Shown here piece by piece: positions 14,737 to 35,300 of a DNA stretch of 64,000 nt. A program made the position numbers and the translations under genes. How positions within the stretch are numbered: the first letter of the stretch is position 1; each line of letters begins with the position of its first letter. The stretch is from NCBI RefSeq assembly GCF_009189165.1, contig NZ_CP045118.1, positions 248,001 to 312,000 on the forward strand, given 5' to 3'. This stretch comes from Pseudomonas sp. SCB32 (GTDB lineage Bacteria; Pseudomonadota; Gammaproteobacteria; Pseudomonadales; Pseudomonadaceae). Below the pieces are notes generated by a model. That model did no database searches. It was not told where the DNA came from and saw only the letters and a program-made list of their open reading frames with translations.

Positions 14737-15666
14737 TCAGCGGGCAATCCACAGCAGGCACAGGGACAGGGTCACCAGCGACCCCAGCGTCGATACCAGG
14801 ATGCTCCGCGACACCACCGCCGCCTCGCGCTGGTAGTACTCGGCGAGCATGAACGGACCGGTGCCGGTGGGCAGCGCGCTGAGCAGCAGCGCCGAATCCG
14901 CCCACAGCGGCGGCAGGTCGAAGACCTTGTAGGCGAGGAAACCGGTCAACAGAGGCTGGCCGACCAGCTTGATCGCCACCAGCGGCCAGGCGCCGACCTG
15001 CTCGCCCTCCTGCTTCTGCGCCAGGAACAGGCCGAGGGACACCAGCGCGCAGGGCGTGGTGGCGGCGGCCAGCATGTCGAGGAAGTGCAGCAGCGGTTCC
15101 GGCAGGCCGATGCCGCTGGCAGCCCAGAGTCCGCCGATGATGGGCGACACCACCAGCGGGTTCTTGCCCAGCGCCTTCAGCACCACGGCAATGGCGCGGC
15201 CGACGTGCTTCTCGGTCTGCAAGCCGACCTCGATACAGACCACGGCGATGGCGAACAGCACGCAGACCACCAGCAAGGATGCGATCAGCGCCGGCTCCAG
15301 GCCGTCCTGGCCGAACACCAGCAGGCACAACGGGATGCCCATGTAGCCGGTGTTGGCGTAGGACGCGCTGAGCCCGTCGATGCTCGCCGCCGGCAGCGCG
15401 CGGCCCTGCAGCAGGCGCCAGGCGAGGGTGGCGAAGAACACCAGCAGGCAGCCGCCGGTGAAGGCGGCCAAGAAACCTGGCTGCCAGATTTCCGCCCAGG
15501 TCGCGGTGGCGGTGACCTTGAACAGCAGCGCCGGCAGACACAGCCAGACCACCAGCCGGTTGATCTCCGAGGCCGCCTGCGGGCCGAGGCGGTTGGTGCG
15601 CCGGCACAGCCAGCCGACCAGGATCAGCGCGAAGATCGGCAGGACGACGGACAGGACGTGGGACAT
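14737..15666 (-). CDS. AEC-family auxin efflux carrier-like transporter
   Basis: 309 residues with about ten hydrophobic helices, starting MSHVLSVVLPIFALILVGWL, and the family segments SYANTGYMGIPL and LPTGTGPFMLAEYY. AEC members move small organic acids. The start is the ATG at 15666; longer frames are shadows of the SDR region. It is downstream of the SDR on the same strand; the organosulfur cluster begins further upstream. Confidence 0.85.
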   Translation of the reverse strand: MSHVLSVVLPIFALILVGWLCRRTNRLGPQAASEINRLVVWLCLPALLFKVTATATWAEIWQPGFLAAFTGGCLLVFFATLAWRLLQGRALPAASIDGLSASYANTGYMGIPLCLLVFGQDGLEPALIASLLVVCVLFAIAVVCIEVGLQTEKHVGRAIAVVLKALGKNPLVVSPIIGGLWAASGIGLPEPLLHFLDMLAAATTPCALVSLGLFLAQKQEGEQVGAWPLVAIKLVGQPLLTGFLAYKVFDLPPLWADSALLLSALPTGTGPFMLAEYYQREAAVVSRSILVSTLGSLVTLSLCLLWIAR

Positions 15667-15746
15667 GGTGGCACAACCGGACAGCGGAACGGCTGGCGAG
15701 CATAGGGGCCGAGGTTGCCGCCGTCCAATGCGACCTCGGTCTGGGC

Positions 15747-16427
15747 TCAGACGCGCCCGCTGACCGGGATGCAGGCGCCGGTGATCGCCGCCGCGTCGTC
15801 CGAGGCGAGGAACAGCAGGGTCGCCGCCAGTTGCTCCGGGCGTACCCAGCGGTCGAACTCGGCGTCGGGCATGTCGGCGCGGTTCTGCGGGGTGTCGATG
15901 ATGCTCGGCATCAGCGCGTTGACGGTAATGCGCGCATCTTTCAACTCTTCGGCCAGCGCCTCGGTCAGGCGCATCACACCCGCCTTGGAGGCCGCATAGG
16001 CACCGGTTCCCAGCGCTGCGCGGGTGGCGGCGGCCGCCGCGATATTGAGGATGCGCCCGTGGCCGCGCGCCTTCAGGTGTGCCAGCGCGGCCTGGCTGGA
16101 GACCACGGCGGTGCGCAGGTTGATGCGGTACATCAGGTCCCAGGTGTCGACGTCGCCATCGGCCAGGGTTTCCCAGTGGAAGCCGCCGGCCACGTTGATC
16201 AGCGCGTCGAGCCCTCCGAAATGCTCGCTGGCGCGGTCGATGGCGGCACGCGCGGCGGGACCGTCGGTCAGGTCGACGCCGCCCAGGGACAGCGCGCCGG
16301 CCTGTGGATAACGTGGGCTGACGGCCCGGTCGAGCAGCGCAACCTGCCAGCCGGCGTCGGCGAAGGCCTGGCCGACCACGCTGCCCAGGTGGCCGAAGCC
16401 TCCGGTGATGGCGACGATCTTGTTCAT
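15747..16427 (-). CDS. SDR-family oxidoreductase, catalytic Ser replaced by Ala
   Basis: 226 residues. A nucleotide-binding TGGFGHLG motif lies near residue 8, NVAGG near 79, and the active-site pair Y144-x3-K148 is present. The position 13 residues before the Tyr, normally Ser, is Ala131. The start MNK at 16427 was chosen because it gives the usual short N-terminus before the beta-strand. Substrate unknown. It is separated by about 105 bases from the ABC ATPase gene upstream and could be co-transcribed with it. Confidence 0.8.
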   Translation of the reverse strand: MNKIVAITGGFGHLGSVVGQAFADAGWQVALLDRAVSPRYPQAGALSLGGVDLTDGPAARAAIDRASEHFGGLDALINVAGGFHWETLADGDVDTWDLMYRINLRTAVVSSQAALAHLKARGHGRILNIAAAAATRAALGTGAYAASKAGVMRLTEALAEELKDARITVNALMPSIIDTPQNRADMPDAEFDRWVRPEQLAATLLFLASDDAAAITGACIPVSGRV

Positions 16428-16533: not shown

Positions 16534-17343
16534 CTAGCCGTGCATCAACTCGCCCAGCAGCTCGTCCTTGAGCCGTTGCAGCAGTGGCTCCCCGCGCTGG
16601 CGTGGGTGCGGCAGGTCGACCCGCACCTCATGGCGAATCCGCCCCGGCCGCGCGTCCATGACGATCACCCGGTCGCCCAGGTACAGCGCCTCTTCCACGT
16701 CGTGGGTGACCATGATCATGGTGCTGCGCTGCTGCACCCAGATGCGCTGCAACTCATGCTGCAGGCGTACGCGGGTGAGGGCGTCGAGGGCGCCGAAGGG
16801 TTCGTCCAGCAGCAACACCTTGGGCCGGGTGATCAGCGCGCGGGCGATGGCGGCGCGCTGCGCCATGCCGCCGGAGAGCTGGTGCGGGTAGGCCTGTTCG
16901 AAGCCGGTCAGGCCCACCAGTTCAAGGTGATCCGCCACTAATTCGCGCTTTTCGGCGCGGCTCAGCGTGTGGTTCTTCAGCGCCAGGGCGACGTTTTCCT
17001 GCACCGTCTTCCAGGGGAACAGGCGGTGGTCCTGGAACACGATGCCACGCTCCAGGCCGGTGCCGGTCACGGCTTGGCCGTCCAGCAGGATGCGCCCGCT
17101 GTAGTCGTTCTCCAGGCCGACGATCAGCCTCAACAACGAGGATTTGCCGCAGCCGCTGGCGCCGACGATGCTGACGAACTCGCCGGGGCGCACCGCCAGG
17201 TCGATGTTCTGCAGCACTGGCAGGCTGCGGCCGTCGATGGAATAGGCCTTGCTCAGGCCCTGGATGGCCAGCGCGCCGTGTTGCGCCTGCTGGGCCGGAA
17301 GGAGGGCGGGGTCGAGGATCGCGTTCATTGTCTGTGCACTCAT
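16534..17343 (-). CDS. ABC transporter ATPase, SsuB/TauB type
   Basis: 269 residues: Walker A GASGCGKSS, Q-loop IVFQDHRLFPW, signature LSGGMAQR, Walker B VLLLDEPFGALD and H-loop VTHDVEEAL. This is the nitrate/sulfonate/taurine importer subfamily. An internal ATG at 17328 is an alternative start. It is last of the transporter genes and powers the two permeases encoded just upstream. The only Cys is in the P-loop. Confidence 0.9.
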   Translation of the reverse strand: MSAQTMNAILDPALLPAQQAQHGALAIQGLSKAYSIDGRSLPVLQNIDLAVRPGEFVSIVGASGCGKSSLLRLIVGLENDYSGRILLDGQAVTGTGLERGIVFQDHRLFPWKTVQENVALALKNHTLSRAEKRELVADHLELVGLTGFEQAYPHQLSGGMAQRAAIARALITRPKVLLLDEPFGALDALTRVRLQHELQRIWVQQRSTMIMVTHDVEEALYLGDRVIVMDARPGRIRHEVRVDLPHPRQRGEPLLQRLKDELLGELMHG

Positions 17344-17369: not shown

Positions 17370-18131
17370 CTAGCGCAGGTTGCGCCAGCGCAGCAGGTGG
17401 CGCGCTGCGCGGGCGAACAGCTGGTTCATGGCGTAGCCGAGCAGGCCGATGCTGAGCACGCCGATCACCACGATCTCCATGCGCGAGCCGGTCTCGGCGT
17501 TCATCATCAGGTTGCCCAGGCCCATGCCGGTGGAGAGGAACAGCTCGCAGCCCACCGAGCTGACCCAGGCGAAGGCCAGCGCATGCAGCACGCCGTTGCT
17601 CAGGCTGGGCAGCGCGCCGGGCAGCAGCACTTCGCGGAACTGCTGCCACGGGCCGAAGGCATACAGGCGGCCGACTTCGCGGTAGCGCTTCTCCACGTCG
17701 CGGAAGCCCTCGAAGGCGTTCAGCGTCATCGGGTAGAAGGCGGCGAGGCTGACGATCAGCACCTTGGACGGCTCGCCACTGCCGAACCACAGGGCGATCA
17801 GCGGGATCAGGCCGAGGATCGGCACCTGGCGAATGGTGTGGTACAGCGGTGCGAACAGCCGCTCCAGCGGTCGCGACAGGGCCATGCCGGCGCCCAGCGC
17901 GAAGCCGGCGAGCACGCCCAGCAGCAGGCCGAGGCAGGTGCGTTGCAGGCTGGCGGCGACGCTCAGCCACAGCTCGCCGGTTCGGATCAGCTCGACGAAG
18001 CCGGCGCCGATGCGCTCCAGTGGTACGAAGGCGTAAGCGGCGCTGGCGCCCTGTTGCGACTGCCAGTGCCAGGCGGCGATCAGCAGCGCCGGCAACAGCA
18101 GCCCGCGCAGGCTCTTGAGAAATCGGATCAT
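17370..18131 (-). CDS. ABC transporter permease, SsuC/TauC type (first of two)
   Basis: 253 residues with six membrane segments and the cytoplasmic EAA-type loop (GFRDVEKRYREVGRLYAFG, PGALPSLSNGV). Its start overlaps the stop of the neighbouring permease (ATGA), so the two are coupled and probably form a heterodimer. It belongs to the sulfonate/taurine/nitrate importer family. Confidence 0.88.
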   Translation of the reverse strand: MIRFLKSLRGLLLPALLIAAWHWQSQQGASAAYAFVPLERIGAGFVELIRTGELWLSVAASLQRTCLGLLLGVLAGFALGAGMALSRPLERLFAPLYHTIRQVPILGLIPLIALWFGSGEPSKVLIVSLAAFYPMTLNAFEGFRDVEKRYREVGRLYAFGPWQQFREVLLPGALPSLSNGVLHALAFAWVSSVGCELFLSTGMGLGNLMMNAETGSRMEIVVIGVLSIGLLGYAMNQLFARAARHLLRWRNLR

Positions 18132-18886
18132 GGCGTCGGTCTCCAGCGCAGCAAGCGCTTCTCCAGCAGGCGGAAGGCGAAGTCGAGGACGAAGCCGATG
18201 GCTCCGGTGACCACCACGCCGACCATCACGATGTCGATGCGCAGCATCTGCCGGCTCAGTTCGATCATCTGCCCCAGGCCGCTGTCGGCGGCGAGCAGTT
18301 CGGCGGCCACCAGCACCATCCAGGCGCGGCTCAGGCTGATGCGCAGGCCGGTGACGATGGGCGGCGCGGCGGCGGGGAAGGCGACGTCGCGCAGCAGGCT
18401 CCAGAGCGGCAGGCGGTACACGCTGGCGACCTCGAAGTAGCCGCGCGGAATGCCCTTCACGCCCTCGCTGGCGGCCAGCGCCACGGGGAAGAAGGCGGCC
18501 TTGGTGACGATCAGGATCTTGAAGGTTTCCTCCACGCCGAAGAACAGGATGAACATTGGGATCAGCGCAATCGACGGCACCTGGCGCAGGGTGTGGAACA
18601 GCGGCGCGCAGTAGGCTTCCACAGTTTTCGACAGGGCCATGGCGGTGCCCAGCAGCAGCCCGCCGACGGCGCCGATGGAGAAGCCGATGGCCAGGCGCGA
18701 CAGGCTGTGCACCACGTGCTCGCGCAGCTCGCCGCTGGCCAGCAGGTCCTGGAAGCTGGCCCATACCTCCGCCGGCGGCACCAGCAATTGCGGCGGGAAC
18801 CAGCCGGCGCGGGCGGCGATGAACCAGGCCAGCAGCAGGAGCAGCGGCGAGGCGAACCAGCTCAGGCGATCAAGGGTTTTGCTCAT
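18128..18886 (-). CDS. ABC transporter permease, SsuC/TauC type (second of two)
   Basis: 252 residues with six membrane segments, related to the adjacent permease. The coupling loop is seen as EGVKGIPRGYFEVASVY with AFPAAAPPIVTG. It starts 3 bases after the end of the MFS gene in the leftward operon. Two different permease subunits rather than one is less common in sulfonate systems, which usually encode a single SsuC. Confidence 0.88.
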   Translation of the reverse strand: MSKTLDRLSWFASPLLLLLAWFIAARAGWFPPQLLVPPAEVWASFQDLLASGELREHVVHSLSRLAIGFSIGAVGGLLLGTAMALSKTVEAYCAPLFHTLRQVPSIALIPMFILFFGVEETFKILIVTKAAFFPVALAASEGVKGIPRGYFEVASVYRLPLWSLLRDVAFPAAAPPIVTGLRISLSRAWMVLVAAELLAADSGLGQMIELSRQMLRIDIVMVGVVVTGAIGFVLDFAFRLLEKRLLRWRPTP

Positions 18887-18889
18887 CTC

Positions 18890-20101
18890 TCAACCCTCCT
18901 GGCCGAGCAATGGCCCGGCGCTCTGGCGGCGCTGCTTGCGTTGCCAGCAGAACAGCGCGGCCAGCAGCACCAGGGGAATCCAGCAGAGGAACAGGTTGCC
19001 CAGCCCGACGAAGTGGCTGATCGCCCCGCCCAGCAGCGCGCCGGAAAAACTGCCGGACATGGAGGCGAGGTTGAACAGCCCGGAAATCTTGCTCTTGTCC
19101 ATGGCGTGCTCGCCCAACTGGGCCATGTTCACCAGGTGGATGAGCGCCGCCGCCGCGCTGAGCAGCACGCCGCCCAGGGCCAGCAGCCAGTAGTCGCGGG
19201 CGACGCCGAGCAACAGCAGGGCGGCCAGCGCCGCCGTGAGACTGCCGACGTAGGCCAGTCGGCGGCCGCTGCGCTCGATCAGGTAGCCGAAGCCGAACAG
19301 CCCGAGCACCGAGGCCAGGCCCTGGATCATCACCAGGCTCACCGCCTGGCCTTGCGAGAGGCCGGCGACTTCCATCGCCAGCAGCAGGATGAAGGTGCCG
19401 AACAGCGCGCTGGTGGCGGCGCTGAGCAGTTCGATCAGGCAGCTCTCGGCGATCTCGACATTGGCCAGCATGGCGCTGACCTGTTGCAGCAGTCCGCCGG
19501 TGGCGACAGCCACTGGCACGTCTTCGGCAGGTGCTTCGCCTTCCCAGAAACCGAGGCTGTAGAAGGCCATCAGGCCGAAGCACAGGCCGATGGCGGCAAA
19601 GCCCCAGGTGAAGCTCGCCGCGCCACTCAGCCAATTGCCCAGCAGCGGGCCGAGCAGGCCCATGCCCAGGGTCAGCGAGCCGCGGTACCAGCCGGCCTTG
19701 TCGTTGCCGATGCGCTTGAGCTGGCGCAGGAAGGCGCTGTTCATGGCGACGATGCGGAAGGGGATGCACAGGCCGATCAGCAGGCGTGCTGCGGCCAGCC
19801 ACAGCCAGCCACCGAACAACGGAATGACCAGGTTCAGCAGCATCGGCCCGAGGCTGGCGAGGAAGTACACCCGGCGTGCGCCGAAGCGGGCGATGACGAA
19901 GCCGGCCGGCAGGGTGAGGATCACCATGCCCAGCGCCTCCATGGCCGAGATGATGCCGATCTGCATGGCATTGGCGCCGATGCTGATGGCGTAGAGCGTG
20001 GTGACGATCTTCGCCATGCCGATGGTGGCGCCGCTGAACGCCGCCAGCAGCATGAAGTTGAGCAGGAAGGCGGCGGGCCGCGCCGGGCTAGATGGCGACA
20101 T
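18890..20101 (-). CDS. MFS transporter
   Basis: 403 residues with about twelve helices. The family loop between helices 2 and 3 reads PAGFVIARFGARRVYFL. It overlaps the DszB-like gene upstream by 14 bases and so belongs to the sulfur operon. It may export the desulfonated product or a toxic intermediate. Membrane proteins of the cluster keep several Cys and Met, unlike its soluble proteins. Confidence 0.8.
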   Translation of the reverse strand: MSPSSPARPAAFLLNFMLLAAFSGATIGMAKIVTTLYAISIGANAMQIGIISAMEALGMVILTLPAGFVIARFGARRVYFLASLGPMLLNLVIPLFGGWLWLAAARLLIGLCIPFRIVAMNSAFLRQLKRIGNDKAGWYRGSLTLGMGLLGPLLGNWLSGAASFTWGFAAIGLCFGLMAFYSLGFWEGEAPAEDVPVAVATGGLLQQVSAMLANVEIAESCLIELLSAATSALFGTFILLLAMEVAGLSQGQAVSLVMIQGLASVLGLFGFGYLIERSGRRLAYVGSLTAALAALLLLGVARDYWLLALGGVLLSAAAALIHLVNMAQLGEHAMDKSKISGLFNLASMSGSFSGALLGGAISHFVGLGNLFLCWIPLVLLAALFCWQRKQRRQSAGPLLGQEG

Positions 20102-21143
20102 CGATTTTCCCCAGCAGGGCTTCCAGCGGGCGCGGATCGATCCAGTCGTCGACACTGAAGTCTTTACCGATGAACTCCCAGCGCTGGAGAAAGGCGGTGA
20201 GGTCGCGCAGGGCGTTGACCGAGCGCTCCGCCAGATTGGTCTGCAGGCGCAGGTGGGCATCCTCGCCATAGGCGCTGGCGACCCAGAATTCGCTGGTGTT
20301 CAGCTCGCGGGCGAGGAAGCGGCGGGTCTCTTCGGGATGCGCCCAGGCCCACTGCTCGGCGCGCAGCACGGTGTCGAGCACCCGCACGGCGGCATCGAAA
20401 TGCTCGTCCAGCAGTTGCTGGTCGACGGTCAGGGTACGCGGCGTGCCGATGTTCGAGCGCACCAGCGGCTCGGGATGCGAGCCGACGTCCAGCACCACGT
20501 GCAGGCCGAACTCATGGGCCAGCTGCAGGCCGTGGGCGCCCTTGAGGAAGATGGCGTCGATGTCGCCGCGCAGCAGGCCGATCAGCTCGTTGTTGCGCTG
20601 CACCACGCGGTTGCCCTTGAGCGCCACCTGGGCGCCGAACACGTGGCGCACCGGGTCGTCGCTGTAGGTGCCGCCGTAGGGGTAGTCCACCAGTTCGACG
20701 TCGCGCACCTCCAGGCCTTCCAGGCGCAGGGCGTTTTCCAGGCCGCGCAGGGACTGGGCGCGGGTGAAGTCGATCTGCACGTTGGCCCACTTCGGCAGGC
20801 CGAAGCGCCGGTGGCGCAGGTCGCGGATGCTGCGCACGCCGCTGTCCGGCGCGCTGACGATGAGCTGCACCTCGTCGCTCCAGGACAGCCCGACCACCCG
20901 CGTGCGCGAGCCGCTGGCGCGGGCCCAGATGGCCGGGATGTTGCCGCCGTGGCGTACGGAGTAGGGCAGGTGATGGTCGAAGTGCGCCTCGCGCACCTCG
21001 CGTTCGGAGGACTCGCGCAGCGACTGGATGCGCGTGCCGAAGGGGCGGAAGGCCTGGGCCAGACGCCCGGATTCGACGGCGATGCCGAGTCCCGTTGGGA
21101 CGGGGCTGTGGGTGTACCAGAGGGTTTCCAGCGGTGTGCTCAT
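20088..21143 (-). CDS. DszB-like protein 1 (SBP fold; nucleophile position is Ser)
   Basis: 351 residues, closely similar to the product of the next gene upstream. By alignment from memory with Rhodococcus DszB (2'-hydroxybiphenyl-2-sulfinate desulfinase, active residues Cys27, His60, Arg70), the matching residues are Ser13 (in THSPVP), His54 and Arg64 (in VRHGGNIPAIW). With Ser at the nucleophile position it may be a non-catalytic binding protein. It has no signal peptide, so it is probably not a periplasmic receptor. It contains no Cys and only the initiator Met. Confidence 0.75.
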   Translation of the reverse strand: MSTPLETLWYTHSPVPTGLGIAVESGRLAQAFRPFGTRIQSLRESSEREVREAHFDHHLPYSVRHGGNIPAIWARASGSRTRVVGLSWSDEVQLIVSAPDSGVRSIRDLRHRRFGLPKWANVQIDFTRAQSLRGLENALRLEGLEVRDVELVDYPYGGTYSDDPVRHVFGAQVALKGNRVVQRNNELIGLLRGDIDAIFLKGAHGLQLAHEFGLHVVLDVGSHPEPLVRSNIGTPRTLTVDQQLLDEHFDAAVRVLDTVLRAEQWAWAHPEETRRFLARELNTSEFWVASAYGEDAHLRLQTNLAERSVNALRDLTAFLQRWEFIGKDFSVDDWIDPRPLEALLGKIDVAI

Positions 21144-21162
21144 GGACGCTCGATTTTGTTCT

Positions 21163-21226
21163 GGAACCCCTCTCCCCCTTTTTTGAAGAGAGGGCGGAGA
21201 GGGGCAGGGGAGAGGGCTCGCCCTCG
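21163..21226. repeat. CCCCTCTCCCCC / GAGAGGGGCAGGGG inverted repeat
   Basis: The pyrimidine-rich arm CCCCTCTCCCCC with a T tract is followed by GAGAGGGCGGAGAGGGGCAGGGGAGAGGG. It resembles the repeat after flhA (6257-6410). It lies between the two DszB-like genes, so the operon may be partly uncoupled here. Confidence 0.5.
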
Positions 21227-21235
21227 CAACGTTGT

Positions 21236-22288
21236 TCAGCTCGCCTTCTGGGTCAGGCTGCGCAGGGCTTCCAGCGGGCGCGGGTCGATCCACTCGCGCA
21301 CGTCAAAGCGCGTCGGAATGAAGTTCCAGCGCTGCAGGAAGTCGGTGAAGTCCTGCAGGGCGAGGATCGAGCCTTCGTCGAGGTTGGTGCGCAGGCGCAG
21401 GTGGGCGTCCTCGCCATAGGCGGTGGCGACCCAGAACTCGCTGCTGTTGGTTTCCCGCGCCAGGTAGCGGCGAGTGTCGTCCGGGTGCTGGTGCGCCCAG
21501 TCCTCCGCGCGCAACACCGAGGCGAGGATCGCGGTGGCGGCGTCCGGATGCTGTTCCAGCAGATTGAGGTCGACGCTCAGGGTGCGCGGCGTGCCGTTGT
21601 TGGCGCGGATCAGCGGCTCCGGATGCGCGCCGGTGTCGATCACTGTGTGCAGGCCGAACTGCTGCGCCAGCTGCACGGCGTGGGCGCCCTTGAGAAAAAT
21701 CGCATCGACCGCGCCACGTAACAGCCCGACCAGCTCCGGATTCTGGCTGCGCCGGCGGCTGCCGCCGTGGCCGGTGATGCCGACGATATTGCTGGGAGCC
21801 TCGTCGCTGAAAGTGCCCTTCAGACCGAAGTCCACCAGTTCGACGTCGCGCACTTCCAGGCCTTCCAGGCGCAGGGCGTTCTCCAGGCCGCGGATGGCCT
21901 GGGCGCGGGTGAAGTCGATCTGCGCGCCGCTCCAGTCCGGCAGGCCGAAGCGCCGGCCCTTGAGGTCGCGCACGGTGCGGATGCCGCTCTCGGCGGTGGT
22001 CAGGATCAGTTGTGCTTCATCGGCCCAGGACAGGCCGATCACGCGGGTCTCGCGGCCGCTGGCGCGGGCCCAGATGGCCGGGATGTTGCCGCCGTGGCGC
22101 ACCGAGTTCTGCAGGGTGTGGTCGAAGTGCGACTCGCGCACCGCCTGGTCGCCGGACTCGCGCAGCGACTTGATCTGCGTGCCCTGCTCGGCGAGGGCTT
22201 CTTCCAGCCAGCCTTTCTGCACGGCGATGCCAAGGCCCGTGGGAACCGGGCAGCGGGTGTACCAGAGGGTATCGAGGGGACGGGACAT
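21236..22288 (-). CDS. DszB-like protein 2, predicted sulfinate desulfinase
   Basis: 350 residues. It keeps all three DszB active positions: Cys13 (TRCPVP), His54 (ESHFD) and Arg64 (VRHGGN), with the same 10-residue His-Arg spacing as DszB. Cys13 is the only cysteine in the protein, in a cluster whose proteins otherwise avoid sulfur. It starts 17 bases after the monooxygenase gene, behind AAGGAG. A sulfonate-oxidising flavoenzyme followed by a C-S cleaving desulfinase would be logical, but no substrate is known. Annotation pipelines would usually call it an ABC substrate-binding protein; it lacks a signal peptide. Confidence 0.75.
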   Translation of the reverse strand: MSRPLDTLWYTRCPVPTGLGIAVQKGWLEEALAEQGTQIKSLRESGDQAVRESHFDHTLQNSVRHGGNIPAIWARASGRETRVIGLSWADEAQLILTTAESGIRTVRDLKGRRFGLPDWSGAQIDFTRAQAIRGLENALRLEGLEVRDVELVDFGLKGTFSDEAPSNIVGITGHGGSRRRSQNPELVGLLRGAVDAIFLKGAHAVQLAQQFGLHTVIDTGAHPEPLIRANNGTPRTLSVDLNLLEQHPDAATAILASVLRAEDWAHQHPDDTRRYLARETNSSEFWVATAYGEDAHLRLRTNLDEGSILALQDFTDFLQRWNFIPTRFDVREWIDPRPLEALRSLTQKAS

Positions 22289-22305
22289 GTGCAGCTCCTT
22301 GTGGG

Positions 22306-23460
22306 TCAGGCGCGGGCCTTGAGTTCGTGGATGTCGGCGCGTTTGCCTTGCACCAGCGGCAGGACTTCCTGGCCGATGCGCAGGGCTTCTTCCAGGTGCG
22401 GGTTGCCGGCGAGGATGAAGGTGGAGAAACCGGCGTCGCGGTATTCGGCGAGGCGCTCGGCGACGTTTTCGTGGCTGCCCACAAGGCCGATGGTCGGACC
22501 CGGCTTGGCCTTGCCGAAGCCGGCCCAGAGGTTTGGGCCGAGGATCAGGTCGTCGAAACGCTCGACGTTCTGGTGGTAGGCGGTCTGCCGCGCGGCGCCG
22601 ACCGAATCCGAGCCGGTGGCGAAGTTCTTGATGAAGGCGCTGGTGCGCGCGTCGATGCGCTCGTACTGGCGGCGCAGCTCGCTCCAGGCGGCCTCTTCGG
22701 TCTCGCGGGCGAACAGGTCGATGCGGATGCCGAAGCGGATCTCGCGGCCCTGTTTGTCGGCGAGCTCGCGTACGCGCTCCAGGTGCGGCTTGAGCTTGTC
22801 GATGGGTTCGGCCCAGTTCAGGTAGACGTCGGCATGTTTTGCCGCGACGTCCAGCGCCGGGTCGGAGAAGCCGGAGAAGTACACGCCGGGCTTGCGCACG
22901 TTCTTCAGCGCGATGGGCAGCGAGCCGTTCTCCAGTTGGTAAATATCGCCCTGATAGGAGAACTGCTCGTTCTTCCACAGGCCGTCGATGATGTCGAGGA
23001 ACTCGCCGGTGCGCTGGTAGCGCTTGTCGTGCTCGAGGAAGTCGCCGTTGGCGCGCTGGCTGGCGGGGTTGCCGCCGGTGATGATGTTCCACTCCAGACG
23101 GTCGCGGGACAGGTGCTGGAGGATCGCCGCCTGCTGCGCGGCGTAGGCCGGCAGGGTCCAGGCGGCCTGGAAGGCGATCAGGAACTTGATCCGGCGGGTC
23201 TCGCGGGCCAGGGCGGCGGCGGCGATCCACGGCTCCGGCCCGGTGGGCAGCAGCGCGCCCTCGAAGCCGGCGATCTCGGCGGCCTTGGCCACCTGGGCGA
23301 TGTAGTCGATGTAGGTGAAGCCGTCCGGCTCACCGTTGGGCAGGCGGCCCGGAGCGATGTTGCCGGGGCGCGAGAGGTGGCTGCCGCGGTTGTTCTTGTC
23401 CGAGGCGAGATAGGGACCGTCGCTGCCCAGCGGCAGTCGCCAGAAGAATTCGGTGCTCAT
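22306..23460 (-). CDS. SsuD-like FMNH2-dependent monooxygenase (LLM class)
   Basis: 384 residues, the length of alkanesulfonate monooxygenase SsuD, with the LLM barrel segments FGIR, NIITGGNP and NLWAGFGK. SsuD converts R-SO3 to aldehyde plus sulfite using reduced FMN. Of the SsuD active residues, the Arg of FGIR is kept, but the following His is Asp (FGIRID) and the Cys54 region reads PTGPEPW without Cys, so the substrate may differ. No SsuE-type flavin reductase is encoded nearby. It contains no Cys and only one Met. Confidence 0.85.
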   Translation of the reverse strand: MSTEFFWRLPLGSDGPYLASDKNNRGSHLSRPGNIAPGRLPNGEPDGFTYIDYIAQVAKAAEIAGFEGALLPTGPEPWIAAAALARETRRIKFLIAFQAAWTLPAYAAQQAAILQHLSRDRLEWNIITGGNPASQRANGDFLEHDKRYQRTGEFLDIIDGLWKNEQFSYQGDIYQLENGSLPIALKNVRKPGVYFSGFSDPALDVAAKHADVYLNWAEPIDKLKPHLERVRELADKQGREIRFGIRIDLFARETEEAAWSELRRQYERIDARTSAFIKNFATGSDSVGAARQTAYHQNVERFDDLILGPNLWAGFGKAKPGPTIGLVGSHENVAERLAEYRDAGFSTFILAGNPHLEEALRIGQEVLPLVQGKRADIHELKARA

Positions 23461-23799
23461 GGCCTTGCTCCTTTACGTTGCGGGGGCAGCGTCGTGCTGC
23501 TCGTGCAAGGTGTTGAGCAAGGGCTGTGCCCAAAGGCTGCAGGCCAGGCCGTGCGCGGCCTTCAGGGTGGTGTGCTGCTGCGGCAGCAGGGCGTTTGTCT
23601 GTACAGCAGCAGTGGGTCAGCAGGGGATGCTGGGCGGGCAGCAATTTTTCCCGTTCAGCCGCGGCTAGTGTGCTGGTGAAACCGAATTTACTTCGTAACT
23701 AGATGATTAATATGATTATTTTTTAATGGCACAAGTCCTGCTCAGTCACTGGAACACCGCCATGCGGTTCATCCATCCCCGACTGCCAGGAGGCATTCC
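23461..23799. promoter_or_regulatory. Divergent promoter region of the sulfur cluster, with possible leader ORF
   Basis: 339 bases between the leftward monooxygenase operon and the rightward aldolase gene. The AT-rich centre (about 23,690-23,725) contains TTACTTCGTAA, a small palindrome in a position fit for a regulator such as CysB. On the minus strand a frame from a TTG at 23644 encodes three consecutive Cys codons (TGC TGC TGT, in LTHCCCTDK) followed by a perfect CTGCTGCCGCAGCAG hairpin. This looks like a cysteine-sensing leader but is unproven. Confidence 0.4.
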
Positions 23800-24531
23800 A
23801 TGTCCACCCTCGACCCGCAACTCGCCAGCCAGCTCGAACAGGTCCGCCGCGACTTCGCCAAGGCCTTCCGCGTGCTCAAGGAAACCCGCACCCTCACCGC
23901 CACCAACACCTACCAGGCCTATGTGCGCGTGCCGGACAGCGACAAGGTGATCGCCGTCCATGCACCCAGCCCCTGGGCCGACGACCAGGAGATCCGCGCG
24001 GTGGTCGCCACCTATGACGGCGAGGTGATCCTCGACGAAAGCATCCCCGGCGCGACCCCGCTCAGCGGCCGTGGTGCAGGCGGCAACGGCAAGCGCTACG
24101 CGGCGATCTTCCAGGCGCGCCCGGAGGTGAACGTGGTGATCCACGTGCACACCGCCTACCTCGGCGGCTGGGCCAGCGCCCACCGCGTGCTGCCGATCCG
24201 CTACGCCGCCTCGCAGCGCGTGACCCTGGCCCGCGAGCTGCCGATCTACATCGACCGCCGCCAACCCGAGCCGCTGTTCATCCTCGACAAGCTCGCCGAG
24301 AACCCGCACACCCCGGCCATCCTCGAAGCCAACGGCGGCGCGACCTTCTGGGGCGACGACCTGATCAAGGCGTCCAAGCTGATCCTGCTGCTGGAGGAAG
24401 GCGCCTACTTCCAGGGCCTCGCCGAAAGCCTCGGCGGCTCCCAGGAATTCGGCCCCGGCGTGCTGGAACAGCAGTGGAAGATGACCGGCCTCTGGGAGCA
24501 GGGCCAGAAGCTGCTGGGCGCGGCGGCCTGA
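23800..24531 (+). CDS. Class II aldolase/adducin-family protein
   Basis: 243 residues starting behind CAGGAGGCATTCC. The metal-site motif HVHTAYLGGWAS (around 112-120) and a preceding SGRGAGGNGKRY phosphate/substrate loop fit the class II aldolase/adducin fold (L-fuculose-phosphate aldolase, RhaD, MtnB). It is the only rightward gene of the sulfur cluster. It has no Cys and two Met. It might act on the carbon skeleton or aldehyde released after desulfonation; the substrate is unknown. Confidence 0.8.
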   Translation: MSTLDPQLASQLEQVRRDFAKAFRVLKETRTLTATNTYQAYVRVPDSDKVIAVHAPSPWADDQEIRAVVATYDGEVILDESIPGATPLSGRGAGGNGKRYAAIFQARPEVNVVIHVHTAYLGGWASAHRVLPIRYAASQRVTLARELPIYIDRRQPEPLFILDKLAENPHTPAILEANGGATFWGDDLIKASKLILLLEEGAYFQGLAESLGGSQEFGPGVLEQQWKMTGLWEQGQKLLGAAA

Positions 24532-24546
24532 TTTTCTTCCCCGCAT

Positions 24547-24575
24547 GAAAAAGCCCTCTTGCGAGGGCTTTTTTG
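24547..24575 (+). terminator. Rho-independent terminator after the aldolase gene
   Basis: AAAAAGCCCTC-TTGC-GAGGGCTTTTTTG hairpin with a T run, 15 bases after the stop. The A-rich left flank means it could also stop transcripts coming from the right. Confidence 0.9.
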
Positions 24576-24616
24576 TGGGGGCTTTCGTAGGAGCGGCATA
24601 GAGCAATGTCGAAGGC

Positions 24617-24705
24617 GTAGGATGGGTAGAGCCTGCGAAACCCATCGTTACCTACGCCGTGGGTGCCTGTGATTGATGGGTTTCGCTTCGCTCTACCCAT
24701 CCTAC
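24617..24705. repeat. Palindromic GTAGGATGGGT repeat, second copy
   Basis: The left half starts GTAGGATGGGTAGAGC and the right half ends GCTCTACCCATCCTAC, with inner arms CGAAACCCATC and GATGGGTTTCG. Same family as 14625-14703. Fragments of the GTAGGAGC REP type flank it at about 24,586 and 24,727, so this gap is a nest of repeats. Confidence 0.7.
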
Positions 24706-24739
24706 GAAGACTGCCAAAGACAGTTGCTCCTACGTTTCA

Positions 24740-25816
24740 TCAGGGCTTGGCTGCGACTGAGGGCCCGGCGCTGCGCTGCCAGAAGCTCTCCAGTTGCAGA
24801 TCCTTCAACCCCTGCTCGACGAACTTCGGCTCCAGCAGATCCTCCACCTTCACGTCGCCCCGGATCAGTTTCGCCTTCAGGCTGTAGGCGGTCCCGTCGC
24901 TGTAATGCTGGCGCAGGGCATCGTCGTAGAGCGGCGAGAAATGCGCCGCCCAGGGTTCGCCCGCGACTTCCCGCTGCAGCACGTTGAGCGGCACGCCGGA
25001 ACGGGCCTGTGCCTCCTGGTAAGCCGCCTGGTTGGCGTCCTGCGACACCCACCACGCGGCTTTCAGGTAGGCGTCCACCACCAGTTGGGTGAGGTCCGGA
25101 TGTTCCTTGACGAAGTCGCGCGCGCCCCAGAGTTCGGCGCGCATCTTCCAATCGGCCGGGGCCTGCTTGCTCGACCAGATGATCCGGCCGACCTGCTTGT
25201 CTTCCAGCAGGAAGGCGTCGCTCAGGGTGAAGAACGCATCCACCCGCCCGGCGCTCAGCGCGGCTGCGCCGGCCTGGGGGTTGAGGTTGAAGATGCGAAA
25301 GTCCTCGAAGCGCAGGCCGTTGGCCTCCAGCAACTTGGCGAACGACAGCTCCCACGGCCGGCCACGGTGCAGGGCAATGCGCTTGCCCTTGAGGTCGACG
25401 ATGGACTTGGCCGGGGAGCCCGGTGGCACCACCAGGTAGACGTTGTTGCCGATGCCGCCGGGGGCGATCAGCTGGGTCTGCACCCCGGAGGCGTTGGCGA
25501 TGATCGACGGCAAATCTCCGTAGAAGGCGAAGTCGATGCGCTTGTTGGCGAATTCCTCGTTGACGAAGGTGCCCACCGAGGCGGTGGCGGCGGGCACCCA
25601 TTCCAGCTTGATGCCGCGCTGGGCGAGTTGCTGGTCCAGCCATTTGTCACGCGCGATGACGTAGGCCGGGCCGTTGAAGGTGATCTGGCCGGCGTTGGCA
25701 TAAGCCACGGTGGCGATGCGCAGGGTGGTCGGCTGCTCGGCGGCCGCAACCTGGCCGGCGAGCAGCAGGGCGGCGACTGGCAGCAGCCGGCGCAACGTGC
25801 GATGGATCAGGGACAT
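24740..25816 (-). CDS. Periplasmic sulfonate-type substrate-binding protein (SsuA-like)
   Basis: 358 residues with a signal peptide (cleavage near VAA-AEQP) and a type-2 binding fold of the SsuA/TauA/NrtA class: LRIATVAYAN, IDFAFYGDLPSIIA, DLKGKRIALHRG. It delivers ligand to the ABC permeases encoded 6 kb further along the same strand. It follows the TonB receptor gene by 14 bases. It has no Cys and two Met. Confidence 0.88.
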   Translation of the reverse strand: MSLIHRTLRRLLPVAALLLAGQVAAAEQPTTLRIATVAYANAGQITFNGPAYVIARDKWLDQQLAQRGIKLEWVPAATASVGTFVNEEFANKRIDFAFYGDLPSIIANASGVQTQLIAPGGIGNNVYLVVPPGSPAKSIVDLKGKRIALHRGRPWELSFAKLLEANGLRFEDFRIFNLNPQAGAAALSAGRVDAFFTLSDAFLLEDKQVGRIIWSSKQAPADWKMRAELWGARDFVKEHPDLTQLVVDAYLKAAWWVSQDANQAAYQEAQARSGVPLNVLQREVAGEPWAAHFSPLYDDALRQHYSDGTAYSLKAKLIRGDVKVEDLLEPKFVEQGLKDLQLESFWQRSAGPSVAAKP

Positions 25817-25830
25817 GGTGATTACCTCGC

Positions 25831-28056
25831 TCAGAAGTCGGTGGTGACCGAGACGCCGAAGGTGCGCGGGTCGCCGAACATCAGGCCGGCAGTCTGGTAG
25901 CCGCCCGGCAGGGTGTGGTTGCGGTATTCCTTGTCGGTCAGGTTGTTCACGTAGGCGGTGACGCGGGTGGTTTCGCCCGGCAGTTCGTAGGTCACCCGCG
26001 CGTTGCCCAGGGTGTAGCCGCCGCTGCGCATGTTGGCGCTCTGGTCGTTGCTGAAGAAGTACTGGCGGCTGCGGGTGTCCCAGTCGGTGCCGAGGATCAC
26101 CGCGCCGCCGACGTTCAGCGGAATGCGGTAGTCGGCGCCGAGCACCGCCGAGACGTTGGGCGCGCGAACGAAACTGTTGCCGGAGTAGTCGTTGGGGCCG
26201 GAGGTGTAGTCAGTGAACTCGGTGTGCAGCAGGCCCAGGCCGAAATTGACGTGGAGGTTCTGCAACGGAATGGCTTCGAGCTCGAACTCTGCGCCGTAGG
26301 CCTCGCCCTGGGCGCCGTTGGCCAGGCGCGAGACGGTCTGGTTGTTCACCGCGGTGACGATGTTGAGCTGGATGTCCTCGTAGTCGTAATAGAACAGGCT
26401 GGCGTTGGCGTTCAGGCGGCCGTCCAGCCATTCCGACTTCAGGCCCAGCTCGTAGGAGGTGAGGTATTCCGGGTCCACCGTGGCGACGGTGGCCTGGCTG
26501 GTCACGCCGGTGTTGTAGCCGCCGGAGCGGAAGCCGCGGGCATAGCGGAAGTAGGCGCGGGCGTTGTTGGAGATGCGGTACTCCGGGGTCAGGTCCCAGC
26601 TGTAGTCGCTCCAGGTGTTGCTCTCGTCCTGGCTGGCGTTGGCGACCAGTTGCGAGAGGACGTTGTCCTGCTTCCACCAGTCGCCGTTGCCGAACACCGC
26701 GGGGCCGCGGTTCTGCAGGCGCAGCAGGTCGATGTCCTTGGTTTCGCGGGTCCAGCGCAGGCCGGCGGTGAGGCTGAAGTCGTCGGTGAAGTTGTAGGTG
26801 GTGCTGCCGAAGATGGCGTAGCTCTCGGTCTGCTGGTCGTAGCTGACGTTGTTGTAGTAGCGCGGGATGTACGGGTTGGTCAGCGCTGCGCTGGCGTTTT
26901 CCGCCTGCAGGTCCTCGTTGAAGTAGTGGAAGCCCAGCACCCAGTTCAGCCGGTCGGTGCGCGGCGAGGCCAGGCGAAACTCCTGGGAATACTGCTGGCT
27001 GTCGGCATAGCCGTAGCTGCGCTGCAGCTCCAGCGGGGTGTTGTCGCTGTCGGTCCAGCCGTCGCGGGTGAAGTGTTCGAAGGCGGTGATGGAGGTCAGC
27101 TCCAGGTCGCCCAGTTGCCAGACCAGGTTGAGGTTGCTGCCCAGTTGGTCGATCTCGGCCTGGTACTTGGCGTTGAAGTTGGCCTTGCCCAGTTTCGGGT
27201 CGATGGAATAGCCAAACTGGTTGGTGCCGTCCGGGCGGGTGCCGTAGCTGACGGTGTTGTAGCTGGCGGTGTCGTGGTAGTGGCGGGCGTGCAGGTTGAG
27301 GTTGGCGTCGAGGTTGTCGTTGACCCGCGCGGCGAACTGCAGGCGCACGGCGTCATCTTCCAGCGCGCCCTGGTCGTCGTTGTCGTTGATGTTCTCGGTG
27401 TAGCCGTCACGGCCCTGGTGATGGAAGGACAGGCGGCCGGCCAGCTTGTCGTCCACCAGCGCGTCGCTCACCGCGCCTTCGACGATGCGGTTGGCGTAGT
27501 TGCCCATGTCGACCTTGAAGTAGCCCTCGGGGCTGAAGGTCGGCTTGCGCGAGATGAAGTTGATCGCGCCGCCCGTGGTGTTCTTGCCCCACAGGGTGCC
27601 CTGCGGGCCGCGCAGCACTTCCACGCGCTCCTGGTCGAACAGCGGGAAGCCCGTGGCACTGATGTTGGCGATGTAGACGTCGTCGACATAGATGCCGATC
27701 GGGCTGACGGTGTTGGCGCCCTGATCGCCGGTGCCCAGGCCGCGAATCCACCAGCGCGGGCGGCCGTGGCCGTCGGTGGTGCCCGCCGAGGCGTTGGGCG
27801 TGTAGCGGGTCACTTCGTTGGCCGATTGCAGGGAGGCGTCGCGGATCTTCTCGCCGCTGAGCACGGTGATCGGCGCCGGCACGTCCTGCACCGACTCCTC
27901 GCGCTTCTGCGCGGTGACCACCACCTTGCCCAGGGTCGGCGCGGCGCTGCTGTCGTTGTTCTGCCGGGTATCGCTGTCGTCCGCCACGGCGCTCTGGCTG
28001 GCGAGTCCCCCCAGACTCAGGACGATGGCGAGGGAAAGGGTACTGCGTTTGAACAT
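25831..28056 (-). CDS. TonB-dependent outer membrane receptor
   Basis: 741 residues. A signal peptide (to about SAVA-DDSD) leads to a TonB-box-like stretch (TLGKVVVTAQKREES), a plug domain (VLRGPQGTLWGKNTTGGAINFIS) and a 22-strand barrel ending in aromatic Phe (GVSVTTDF). Its position with a sulfonate-type binding protein suggests uptake of an organosulfur compound (sulfate-ester receptors of the SftP type are a precedent), not iron. It has no Cys and only four Met in 741 residues, a sulfur-sparing composition. Confidence 0.9.
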   Translation of the reverse strand: MFKRSTLSLAIVLSLGGLASQSAVADDSDTRQNNDSSAAPTLGKVVVTAQKREESVQDVPAPITVLSGEKIRDASLQSANEVTRYTPNASAGTTDGHGRPRWWIRGLGTGDQGANTVSPIGIYVDDVYIANISATGFPLFDQERVEVLRGPQGTLWGKNTTGGAINFISRKPTFSPEGYFKVDMGNYANRIVEGAVSDALVDDKLAGRLSFHHQGRDGYTENINDNDDQGALEDDAVRLQFAARVNDNLDANLNLHARHYHDTASYNTVSYGTRPDGTNQFGYSIDPKLGKANFNAKYQAEIDQLGSNLNLVWQLGDLELTSITAFEHFTRDGWTDSDNTPLELQRSYGYADSQQYSQEFRLASPRTDRLNWVLGFHYFNEDLQAENASAALTNPYIPRYYNNVSYDQQTESYAIFGSTTYNFTDDFSLTAGLRWTRETKDIDLLRLQNRGPAVFGNGDWWKQDNVLSQLVANASQDESNTWSDYSWDLTPEYRISNNARAYFRYARGFRSGGYNTGVTSQATVATVDPEYLTSYELGLKSEWLDGRLNANASLFYYDYEDIQLNIVTAVNNQTVSRLANGAQGEAYGAEFELEAIPLQNLHVNFGLGLLHTEFTDYTSGPNDYSGNSFVRAPNVSAVLGADYRIPLNVGGAVILGTDWDTRSRQYFFSNDQSANMRSGGYTLGNARVTYELPGETTRVTAYVNNLTDKEYRNHTLPGGYQTAGLMFGDPRTFGVSVTTDF

Positions 28057-28407
28057 GGTGTCCCCAAGGGCGGCGAAAGGACGGCCGGCTCTGTGGTGCT
28101 CGGTCGTCGCCGCAAGGCATCAAGCTGTTATTGCGTTGCTCATGTGCTGGCTCACGCGTGATAAGGCCGGTTGGCTTGATGGGGACATCGCAACATCCGT
28201 ACCGCTTTGTGGGCTGATTGCAATGCATTGATATTAAAGGTGTTTTTATTTCTGCTGGCGCGGTGTTGCTGCTGGGGAAGCAGCCCGTGCTGGCCGGTCG
28301 CTGCCTGGGCAACAGTGCGGCAGCAGGTCATCCCGCTTTTGTCGAAAGGCCTCGGGAACGCCATCTGCCGCTGCTAAGCTGAAGCCTTGCAAGACCTGGA
28401 GATGGTG
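28057..28407. other. Divergent intergenic region
   Basis: 351 bases between the TonB receptor gene (leftward) and the phosphatase gene (rightward). The middle part (about 28,195-28,260) is AT-rich and probably holds the receptor promoter. No small gene or clear repeat was seen. Confidence 0.4.
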
Positions 28408-32308: not shown

Positions 32309-35300
32309 ATGAGCGCAACCAATCCGGCAATGAAAATGCCCGAGCTGTTAGTATTCGCCAGGTCGCTCACTGCTGGTTTTGTCGCAGCGGAAATTTTCCG
32401 CACGGCGTTCTATCTGGGCGCGAACTTCGCTCCGACCTTGTCCGATACAGACCTCTGGTTAAGGTTTGGTGGGATACTGGTCACATTGCTCGTGTGTTTT
32501 GCCTACGCATTCAAGCGGGATGCGCATGTCGCAGCTGCACGAATGGCCCGCAGCCTGCGTCTAGACCTGCTATTCGCGATTGGCATCGGTATTTGGACAA
32601 ACGAGCTGGCCTCGCCTTGGCTGGATAAAGTCCATACAGCACTGAGGGGCGCTGATCCAAATTGGGCGCCTGCAATCTTCCTGCTGCTCTTTGCCGTGCT
32701 GCTATCGCCGCTGATTCAACAGTATTGGCCTAGATCTCAAAAAGACGTACCGCAGCTGTACTTCATTGCTGATGAGGAAATCAGCGGCGAGGAAGAGGAC
32801 CTGTTAGCGAGCGGAGCACAGGCCAAATCGTTCGCGGAGACTGTTCTTGCAAGCGGTGCACACCCGGGACTCGTCTTTGGGATAGATGGGCCGTGGGGGG
32901 TTGGCAAAACAAGCTTCATCAATCTCGCTGAACGCTACTGGGCATGCGCGGAAGACAAAGCCATCGTTTGTAGATTTGAGCCTCTTCGATATGCATCAGA
33001 ACCTGATCTTGCGGATCGCTTGATTCGCGACTTGTCTGCCGCGATTCAACGGAAGGTCTTCGCTCCAGAGTTTCGGCCTGCAGCATCCCGGTACTCCCGG
33101 TTAATAAAGGGAAAAGCCGATGTGTCGTTCCTTGGCTTCAAGCTTTCCCTAGAGCCCTCGCAGGAAACTGTTGATGAACTGCTAGATGATATTGACGAGG
33201 TACTTAGGCGCATCGGTCGGCGCGTAATAATCGTCATTGACGACCTTGACCGCTTGGATGCGAAGACAACAAACAATGTGCTGTTCGCAACGAGGCAGAC
33301 GTTCAAGCTTTCACAGGCCACCTATGTCCTTTGCTATGACACGGAGGTCCTTGTTGCAGGCCACGATGAAGGTTCAAGAGCGAGGGAATTCCTAGAAAAA
33401 TTTGTGACGGTTAAATTGAACTTATTTGTTGACAGCTCCAGTATTCGGGACTTCCTGCGGCGGGACTGGCAGCGTGCGGAGAATCAGTTGGGTTCGATTC
33501 CTTCCGATACCATGTTGAAGCTTGGTGCTGTTCTCAATGAGCTGTCGGACATCCTCGACGGGAGCTTAGCTGCAAACTACCTACCCCTGGTGGGGGACCT
33601 GCGCAAAGTGAAACGCTTTGTCAATTCCATGCTACTTATGCAAATCGAGCGGAGCGATCTAGGTCGGACGGATTTTAGTAAGCGAGATCTTATCAATCTC
33701 ATGCTTTTGAATTTGAACTACCCGGGCTTGTTTAGGCGAATCTACGCGGAAGAAACCGAGGGGCGTAGTGGGGTCTTCTCGATTCGACGGGAGTACGGAG
33801 AGCAAGAGTTCAAGAACTCGACCGAATTCACGGGGGTCATGCAGGCCCACAAGGGGGCAGCAGGATTCTTGCTGGGGCAACTCTTTGACGTCATGAGCCT
33901 TGAGCTCAACGAGCGACACGGCATCGACGAGGCTGATCTTAGATCGCGCGCGTGCTTCAACCATGATGGCTTCAGGAATCTGGAGGCGTATCTCAAGCTC
34001 ATTGTGCGATTCGCGACGCCCGAACCCCAAAATACATTTGTGCTGTATCAGAAGGCTGTGGAGCGTGTACAGAAGGGGGTGCCTATTGTCTCAGTATTGA
34101 CGTCGTCTGAGTTTCTCCTGGAGCAAGGGGAGCACTCGCATGATCAGTTCTGGAGGGTGCTGGTAAATCAGTCTTATGGTCTCACTCGTGCGGTCGCCGA
34201 AGACGCTATAAATACGCTTGTGAGCTATCTGCCGCGCTATTCGATGATTGCAAATGAAGATCGGGGACTGCGACAAAGGTCGATCTATTCGCTCTTGCGG
34301 CTTCTAGATCGTGCTGGGTGGGGAAGAACTGACGGGCGCCGCGTTACGAACTCTCCGGAGAATATTGTAGAGATCGCACGTAGGATATTTGGTGAGGGCG
34401 AATATAAGGGTAAGGGACTTATTCAGCGTCTTGCCAATAGCGAGCGTGGCGTACTCGGATGGAATGACCTGTTGATGTTCCGGCTCAACTGCTCCGCAGA
34501 TCGTCAGGGACAACTGCATAATTTGCATTCAGCCCTCATCCTTCATGAGGACGCAAATGCTGCGACAACCGGGGTGGTCAGTAATCTTGCATTGATGGGC
34601 ATGCGGAGAATTTCTCAAGAAATATTCGCACTTTTCCGAAAGGTCTACATTGAATCAGGGCGAAATTTTTATTCAGAAGTTGACGATGTTCCATTTGAAG
34701 CATTTCTTGGTGACGGCTCCTCTAATTTAGGTAACTACATTTTAGCTGGCCAACAGCTTGAGCAAGGCTCCGCGTCTCTTGGTGAACGCGTTTCTGTGGT
34801 GCGCTCGATTGTAAAGTCTTTCGTCATTTATCAACTGAGCAACTCGCTGCCGCCAAATGGGGCTGGGCCGGGCTGTGGGCATTACGACGAGAGTGGAGTG
34901 GGCGATAGTGGCGGTATAGCCAGATTGATGAACAAGTACGTATTTGGCGTTTGTTTTAACCCTGCTCTCCATCCTGATAACGCACTCCACTTCCTTGACT
35001 ACTGTCTGTCGAAACTGAGTAGCTCCTTCTTTTCTGGTCTAGACGAGGAAGGTTACTTTGCCACCAAGGCTGAACTTCCTGGTGGTCTTGATCCGATGGA
35101 AATGGGGCGCTATTGGGGGGTACATCAGAAGCAAATCCGCCAACGAGTTCTGCTCGTCGAAGAAAGACAGGTAGTTACGTCCGGCTACATAGCTACATAT
35201 GCCGGGGATTTGGAAGGTGTTTTCACCGTGCTTGATGAACTAGCTGCCGAGGCTGCAACGGCACAGGAGCGGCACGAGGACCTTCCTATTGCTCGACTTG

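Follow-up and report, generated by a model that had tools for sequence, protein, structure and literature searches.

A probable sulfur-starvation gene cluster of Pseudomonas encodes SsuD-like and DszB-like proteins nearly free of cysteine and methionine

The sulfone regulon of Pseudomonas putida, SfnR/sfnFG, is marked by sigma54-type promoters. In Rhodococcus IGTS8, the origin of the 2'-hydroxybiphenyl-2-sulfinate desulfinase DszB (PDB 2de2 and 2de3), the sulfur-sparing response includes enzymes for sulfur acquisition that contain little or no Cys and Met, and DszB itself has one Cys and no Met (PMC8557817). Sulfur sparing as such is therefore already known. Here we describe a gene cluster in a 64,000-nucleotide stretch of Pseudomonas sp. 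SCB32 DNA, the window (bases 248001-312000 of a one-contig 6.31-Mb genome), whose products include a TonB-dependent receptor, an SsuA-like binding protein, an SsuD-like flavin monooxygenase, two tandem DszB-like proteins (D1 and D2), and a class II aldolase-like protein. These six products are almost devoid of Cys and Met. We consider it likely that they belong to a sulfur-starvation cluster, activated through sigma54, that imports and cleaves one organosulfur compound or class of compounds.

The receptor and binding-protein genes run on the minus strand from 28056 to 24740. The genes for the monooxygenase, D1, D2, an MFS transporter, two ABC permeases, and an ATPase occupy the same strand from 23460 to 16534, and the aldolase-like gene (23800-24531) lies on the plus strand between the two groups (Table 1). 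The nearest named loci found in a scan of public genomes are those of Pseudomonas pseudonitroreducens, P. nitroreducens, and relatives.

Genes were called independently with a home-made gene caller, and the sulfur residue count of the initial annotation was reproduced exactly: the six products contain 1 Cys and 11 Met, 6 of them initiators, in 2,427 amino acids. The start Met stands alone in the monooxygenase, D1, and D2, and D1 also carries the single Cys. The binding protein and the aldolase-like protein have two Met each, one of them a non-start residue (M228 in the latter), and the receptor has four, counting the start; Cys is absent from all three. With initiators excluded, 6 Cys+Met are left in 2,421 residues (0.25%). 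As background we used 680 genes from forty 20-kb stretches evenly spread over the genome (~13% sampled), in which Cys+Met make up 2.92% of residues, with a median of 2.89% in the 463 genes of 200 or more amino acids. The six proteins fall in the extreme low tail of this sample, as had been anticipated: for each of them, 2 to 6 of the 463 genes are equally low or lower. Taken as a six-gene block, the cluster stands at 0.25% versus 0.63% for the lowest of 480 sampled blocks, which lies in the ssu operon. The pooled naive binomial value of 1.5e-23 indicates scale only because residues are not independent.

The level of the least depleted of the six was reached by 6 of the 463 sampled genes, 5 of which lie in the ssu and tau stretches, where NCBIfam names include alkanesulfonate monooxygenase, SsuA-family protein, taurine-binding protein, and taurine dioxygenase. 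Among the 10 lowest sampled genes 6 come from these stretches, and among the 20 lowest 8 do; the stretches account for 18 of the 463. In this genome a low sulfur content marks sulfur-scavenging genes, in support of the earlier interpretation. Some parts of an ats-like operon and of the msu operon are low in Cys+Met as well. Another cluster, at 128-142 kb of the genome (L215:2091-16075), encodes a binding protein and two TauD-type proteins whose only sulfur residue is the start Met, together with a TonB receptor (0.50% Cys+Met) and a sulfatase-like protein (1.68%); it is probably another sulfur-starvation cluster. Single low proteins are not diagnostic, since HemX (54712-55821; 0.27%) and HemY (0.73%), encoded at 54712-57050 of the window, are low without a known sulfur-scavenging role. 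A 360-amino-acid protein encoded at 60335-61417, with a Lys/Ala-rich start and no Pfam match, has 0.28% Cys+Met and looks like a coiled-coil or histone-like protein.

The depletion acts at the protein level. ATG, TGC, and TGT account for 6 of 2,421 codons in frame versus 2.89% in the sample, a ~12-fold reduction, while in the other two frames they stand at 6.2% versus 8.2% and at 0.95% versus 1.85%. Because these frames fall by just a quarter and a half, base composition explains only a small part of the effect, and a base-composition artefact as the main cause was ruled out by this control.

The initial annotation had itself raised the doubt that such a composition might be ordinary for the protein families concerned. 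On that view it would follow from the families (exported receptors and binding proteins, luciferase-like enzymes) rather than from sulfur economy. For the receptor this doubt stands: the TonB receptors of the genome are often low (0.33-3.06%), and this one is the second lowest of 10, so that the receptor alone is weak evidence; the unrelated HemX likewise shows that low values occur elsewhere. The other comparisons within the genome went the opposite way. The monooxygenase (0.00%) and the aldolase-like protein (0.41%) lie below all seven other members of their respective families (0.78-4.79% and 1.45-6.40%), and the binding protein (0.28%) lies below six other members (1.41-4.21%) and within the range of the four binding proteins from ssu, tau, and ats-like loci (0.00-0.89%). 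D1 and D2, for which the family control was the binding-protein family only, have a binding-protein fold, yet no signal sequence was seen on reading their sequences. Beyond the ssu and tau stretches, the level of the least depleted of the six is reached by 1 gene of the 463. Family habit is rejected as a full explanation for the monooxygenase, the aldolase-like protein, and the binding protein, and we regard it as a very unlikely account of the cluster.

A search of public genomes that started from an alignment of six sequences gave 181 relatives, of which the best 80 loci were kept; these are related rather than independent because 71 bear the name Pseudomonas. Orthologues were grouped by identity thresholds that we set ourselves, and matches covering less than 70% of the query were dropped. 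The depletion persists in the orthologues. Cys+Met number 3 in 26,128 residues of 68 monooxygenases, 37 in 25,228 residues of 72 D2 proteins, and 107 in 28,005 residues of 80 D1 proteins, 80 being the active-site Cys. The corresponding figures are 31 in 7,258 residues for the aldolase-like protein (n = 30), 29 in 6,150 for the binding protein (n = 18), and 39 in 11,124 for the receptor (n = 15, at least 70% identity), with no Cys in any of the receptors. In the same 80 loci the two permeases, the ATPase, and the MFS transporter have 3.4, 4.3, 2.3, and 5.0% Cys+Met. The persistence of the depletion next to transporter genes of ordinary composition supports the idea, put forward at the outset, of selection for low sulfur cost.

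The gene order monooxygenase-D1-D2-(MFS or receptor)-permeases-ATPase is widely retained among the 80 loci, the aldolase-like gene being often divergent. Other genes recur nearby: an SfnB/DszC-like oxidoreductase in 29 loci (28 with at least 79% identity to the query copy), a second receptor in 36 (mean 0.12% Cys+Met), a sigma54 activator without a sensor domain in 11 (54-100% identity), and a nitroreductase in 9 (mean 0.00% Cys+Met). By analogy, the loci bearing the oxidoreductase resemble a 4S-like set of oxidation, carbon-sulfur (C-S) cleavage by a flavin monooxygenase, and desulfination.

Met and Cys might instead have been lost for protection from oxidation, with peroxyflavin, reduced flavin, and sulfite making oxidisable residues a liability. 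The most extreme protein is indeed a flavin monooxygenase, a peroxiredoxin adjoins ssu, and antioxidant defences are induced by sulfur starvation (PMC12581299). However, the binding proteins of the cluster, ssu, and tau are equally depleted without such chemistry, and another luciferase-family enzyme of the genome holds 18 Cys+Met. We hold this explanation to be improbable.

As first described, the transporters of the cluster are not depleted: the MFS transporter has 4.98% Cys+Met, the permeases have 2.79 and 3.57%, and the ATPase has 2.28%. The depletion ends at the border between D2 and the MFS gene despite a 14-base overlap of the two genes. Since permeases of the ssu and tau systems in this genome have smaller fractions (1.08-1.52%), the normal composition of these transporters is not merely a membrane-protein effect. 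A lower abundance of the cluster transporters could explain the boundary, but this is a guess. With spared and unspared genes meeting at a clean boundary inside one operon, it can be tested directly whether selection on cost scales with protein abundance.

Alignment to DszB (2de2) places Cys13, His54, and Arg64 of D1 at Cys27, His60, and Arg70 of DszB, and each of the three is present in 81 of 81 copies, as are the Arg and both Gly residues of the RxGG motif (RHGG in the window). The structure model of D1 has a pLDDT of 84.4. The C27S substitution inactivates DszB (PMC6100217), and the single Cys of D1 is probably needed for the function of the enzyme. D2 also has the DszB fold, with about a quarter identity between its predicted model and DszB, and carries Ser13 at the Cys27 position. 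Ser, the derived state, occupies this position in 73 of 73 copies; His54 and Arg64, the equivalents of DszB His60 and Arg70, are likewise kept in 73 of 73. Because mean column conservation exceeds that of D1 (87% versus 82%) and both residues are retained, D2 was rejected as a decaying pseudogene. It is conceivable, though doubtful, that D2 is a working enzyme in which the catalytic Cys has been swapped for Ser (Arg-Cys to His-Ser) and which still acts in the pathway. If so, sulfur sparing would have reached an active site, and D1 and D2 would be C-S enzymes, the first dependent on Cys and the second free of it, that work serially or as a heteromer. Among the 80 loci the Ser paralogue is confined to Pseudomonas and Stutzerimonas; eight loci outside Pseudomonas (L155, L167, L178, L179, L181, L182, L188, and L191, from Duganella, Janthinobacterium, metagenome bins, and others) have a Cys-bearing D1 and no close D2.

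The monooxygenase lies under the NCBIfam equivalog cut-offs for both SsuD (TIGR03565; 300.1 versus 518.2 bits) and SfnG (TIGR04021; 145 versus 383 bits), the former being passed by two other enzymes of the genome at 637 and 644 bits. Five aligned solved relatives share the His of RxH and the Tyr of SGYPH; all 69 of the cluster monooxygenases have Asp in place of the His, and 68 of the 69 have Asn in place of the Tyr. Class II aldolases have a metal-ligand His set. The aldolase-like protein does not have this set as it is found in the genome paralogues: HxH is kept, while Gly takes the place of the HG-motif His of all seven paralogues. At least 97% of 61 sequences (close and distant relatives, the window included) retain its NGG, and 60 of the 61 have M228. 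On account of the cut-off, the shared residues of the monooxygenase, and the lost His of the aldolase-like protein, each of the two probably has a function different from the one its name implies.

These deviations would also suit a cluster that serves a carbon or nitrogen source, or the import of an unrelated anion, with the sulfur theme a matter of mere homology, and the analysis points to no particular substrate. However, the nearest solved relatives are SsuD, SsuA, and DszB, and the binding protein has its best PDB match in 3uif (E 2.4e-102), whose annotation is that of a sulfonate-binding protein. SfnB/DszC-like genes neighbor 29 of the 80 loci, and the composition is one shared with ssu and tau genes and with parts of the ats-like and msu operons. 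A role outside sulfur metabolism thus has little probability.

Sequences of the sigma54 -24/-12 type, which serve as a mark of SfnR-type targets, are predicted before all three transcription units (scores of 19.5, 19.0, and 19.5). The score was home-made, with weights of our own setting. The background consisted of 449 sampled genes preceded by a gap of at least 80 bases; because 356 of them reach a threshold of 14, counts are given at 19. On the monooxygenase side, 68 of 69 upstream regions attain this value, at a distance of 50-90 nt from the ATG. The same value is attained in 27 of 30 close orthologues of the aldolase-like gene (at least 18 in 30 of 30) and in 5 of 30 distant ones, which are often placed after D3. 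For the receptor the count is 15 of 15 close upstream regions and 44 of 47 regions of a more distant receptor. An alignment of 25 of the 69 regions shows two divergent -24/-12 sequences between the monooxygenase and aldolase-like genes. The earlier suggestion of a starvation regulon gains support from these promoter-like sequences and from the SfnB/DszC-like or sigma54 activator genes in some related loci.

As for a regulator, the msu operon contains, as read from its sequence, a gene resembling the sigma54 activator of related loci. A 298-amino-acid sigma54-activator protein with one Cys/Met, in which no N-terminal sensor domain was found, is encoded some kilobases from the tau genes (L026:4211-5107); it is a candidate SfnR-type regulator, itself sulfur-spared.

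Several observations weigh against a sigma54-activated sulfur-starvation cluster. A score of at least 19 occurs in 16 of the 449 sampled genes within 250 nt and in 17 within 300 nt, and the upstream region of another window gene (59560-60165) also scores 19.0. The full half-site palindrome is present in just 44 of the 69 regions. A genome scan for TTGCTG-N3-CAGCAA gave no exact site and 32 one-mismatch sites versus 10 for the reversed pattern; it was uninformative, and a single genome-wide activator motif was set aside. No clear sigma54 element of their own was found in the sampled ssu and tau genes, and because most of these lack a comparable element, a sigma54 switch shared with ssu and tau is not supported. 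Within the window, no gene for a sigma54 activator could be recognised inside the cluster or next to it. The transporter genes are undepleted though syntenic and probably co-transcribed, in contrast to the lower values of the ssu and tau permeases. The His-to-Asp and Tyr-to-Asn changes mean that the reaction of the monooxygenase may differ from that of its solved relatives. The missing pointer to a substrate, noted above, counts here too.

Table 1. Genes, key codons, and promoter-like sequences of the cluster (window coordinates)
Feature	Position	Strand	Evidence
TonB-dependent outer-membrane receptor, 741 aa	25831..28056	-	Pfam PF00593 + PF07715
SsuA-like periplasmic binding protein, 358 aa	24740..25816	-	PF09084; PDB 3uif
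Class II aldolase-like protein, 243 aa	23800..24531	+	PF00596
SsuD-like flavin monooxygenase, 384 aa	22306..23460	-	PF00296; SsuD 1nqk E 5e-69
DszB-like 1 (D1), 350 aa	21236..22288	-	PDB 2de2 E 1e-11, alignment
D1 Cys13 TGC codon, sole Cys codon among the six genes	22250..22252	-	
DszB-like 2 (D2), 351 aa	20088..21143	-	alignment to DszB
D2 Ser13 AGC codon	21105..21107	-	
MFS transporter, 14-base overlap with the end of D2	18890..20101	-	
SsuC-like ABC permease 1	18128..18886	-	
ABC permease 2	17370..18131	-	syntenic orthologues
ABC ATP-binding subunit	16534..17328	-	
Sigma54-type -24/-12 sequence, monooxygenase operon, 71 nt before ATG	23516..23531	-	score + conservation
Sigma54-type -24/-12 sequence, aldolase-like gene, 73 nt before ATG	23727..23742	+	score + conservation
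Sigma54-type -24/-12 sequence, receptor gene, 148 nt before ATG	28189..28204	-	score + conservation
Repeated TGCTG/CAGCA half-sites between divergent promoters, candidate activator-binding region	23576..23644	.	conserved columns

The AEC and SDR genes at 14737-16427 were rejected as cluster members because synteny across the 80 loci fails: AEC was found in 1 locus and SDR in 2, one of the two at 29% identity only. A few kilobases beyond the receptor gene, the window encodes a KAP-family P-loop protein of 1,007 amino acids (32309-35332) and a DUF927 protein of 964 amino acids (36112-39006), possibly a mobile or defence region.

From the observed composition with its specificity and conservation, and from homology, active-site residues, promoter-like sequences, and synteny, we infer the following scheme of starvation control, chemistry, and substrate use, with selection for sulfur cost as the cause of the composition. 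When sulfate and cysteine are exhausted, an SfnR-type activator would turn on three sigma54 promoters: one for the receptor and binding protein; one for the monooxygenase, D1, D2, and the transporters; and one for the aldolase-like gene. The compound would be imported by the TonB receptor, the SsuA-like binding protein, and the ABC transporter, and the SsuD-like flavin monooxygenase would oxidise it at a C-S bond to give a sulfinate. D1 would then remove the sulfinate group as sulfite via its single Cys, in the manner of Cys27 in DszB. D2 may bind a like ligand without Cys chemistry and serve as a partner subunit or a carrier, or catalyse another step. As the abundant products would be made only under sulfur limitation, selection would have stripped them of nearly all Cys and Met except those needed for function.

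If so, the cluster is a clear natural case of proteome economy, in which the scavenged element has been removed from its own scavenging machinery and the leftovers mark function; one sequence statistic would therefore indicate both which genes belong to the regulon and which residues are catalytic. The conserved DszB-like Cys/Ser pair offers a test of the desulfinase fold without cysteine and is of interest for biodesulfurization. No title or start of an abstract dealing with the cluster or with a conserved Ser paralogue of DszB was found in a literature search that left subscription papers mostly outside, and nothing on the cluster was found in the accessible portions of a P. donghuensis transcriptome paper (PMC10256816) and a P. 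putida RB-TnSeq paper (PMC10949508).

Compared with the described systems, the cluster shares with DszB the fold, the Cys27/His60/Arg70 set (in D1), and the RxGG motif. It differs in the low identity given above for D2, in the tandem pair with a Ser paralogue, in a partner that is SsuD-like rather than DszA, and in that an SfnB/DszC-like gene accompanies only the minority of related clusters counted above. With SsuD and MsuD it has in common PF00296 over nearly the full length of the monooxygenase and the SsuA-like and SsuC-like neighbors. The cluster enzyme, however, lies under the curated cut-off, has Asp and Asn for the shared His and Tyr, and lacks the Cys-bearing loop of SsuD and MsuD. 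The SfnR/sfnFG regulon is similar in its sigma54-type promoters and in the SfnB-like and activator genes near some orthologous clusters; here the monooxygenase is not SfnG by cut-off, and no activator was recognised at the cluster. Unlike what is described for sulfur sparing in IGTS8, the depletion is seen here to be conserved over 80 loci and to end abruptly at the transporter genes. Three features are apparently new: the desulfinase-like pair with its conserved Cys and Ser, the layout of the sigma54-type sequences, and the sharp stop of the depletion at the transporter genes.

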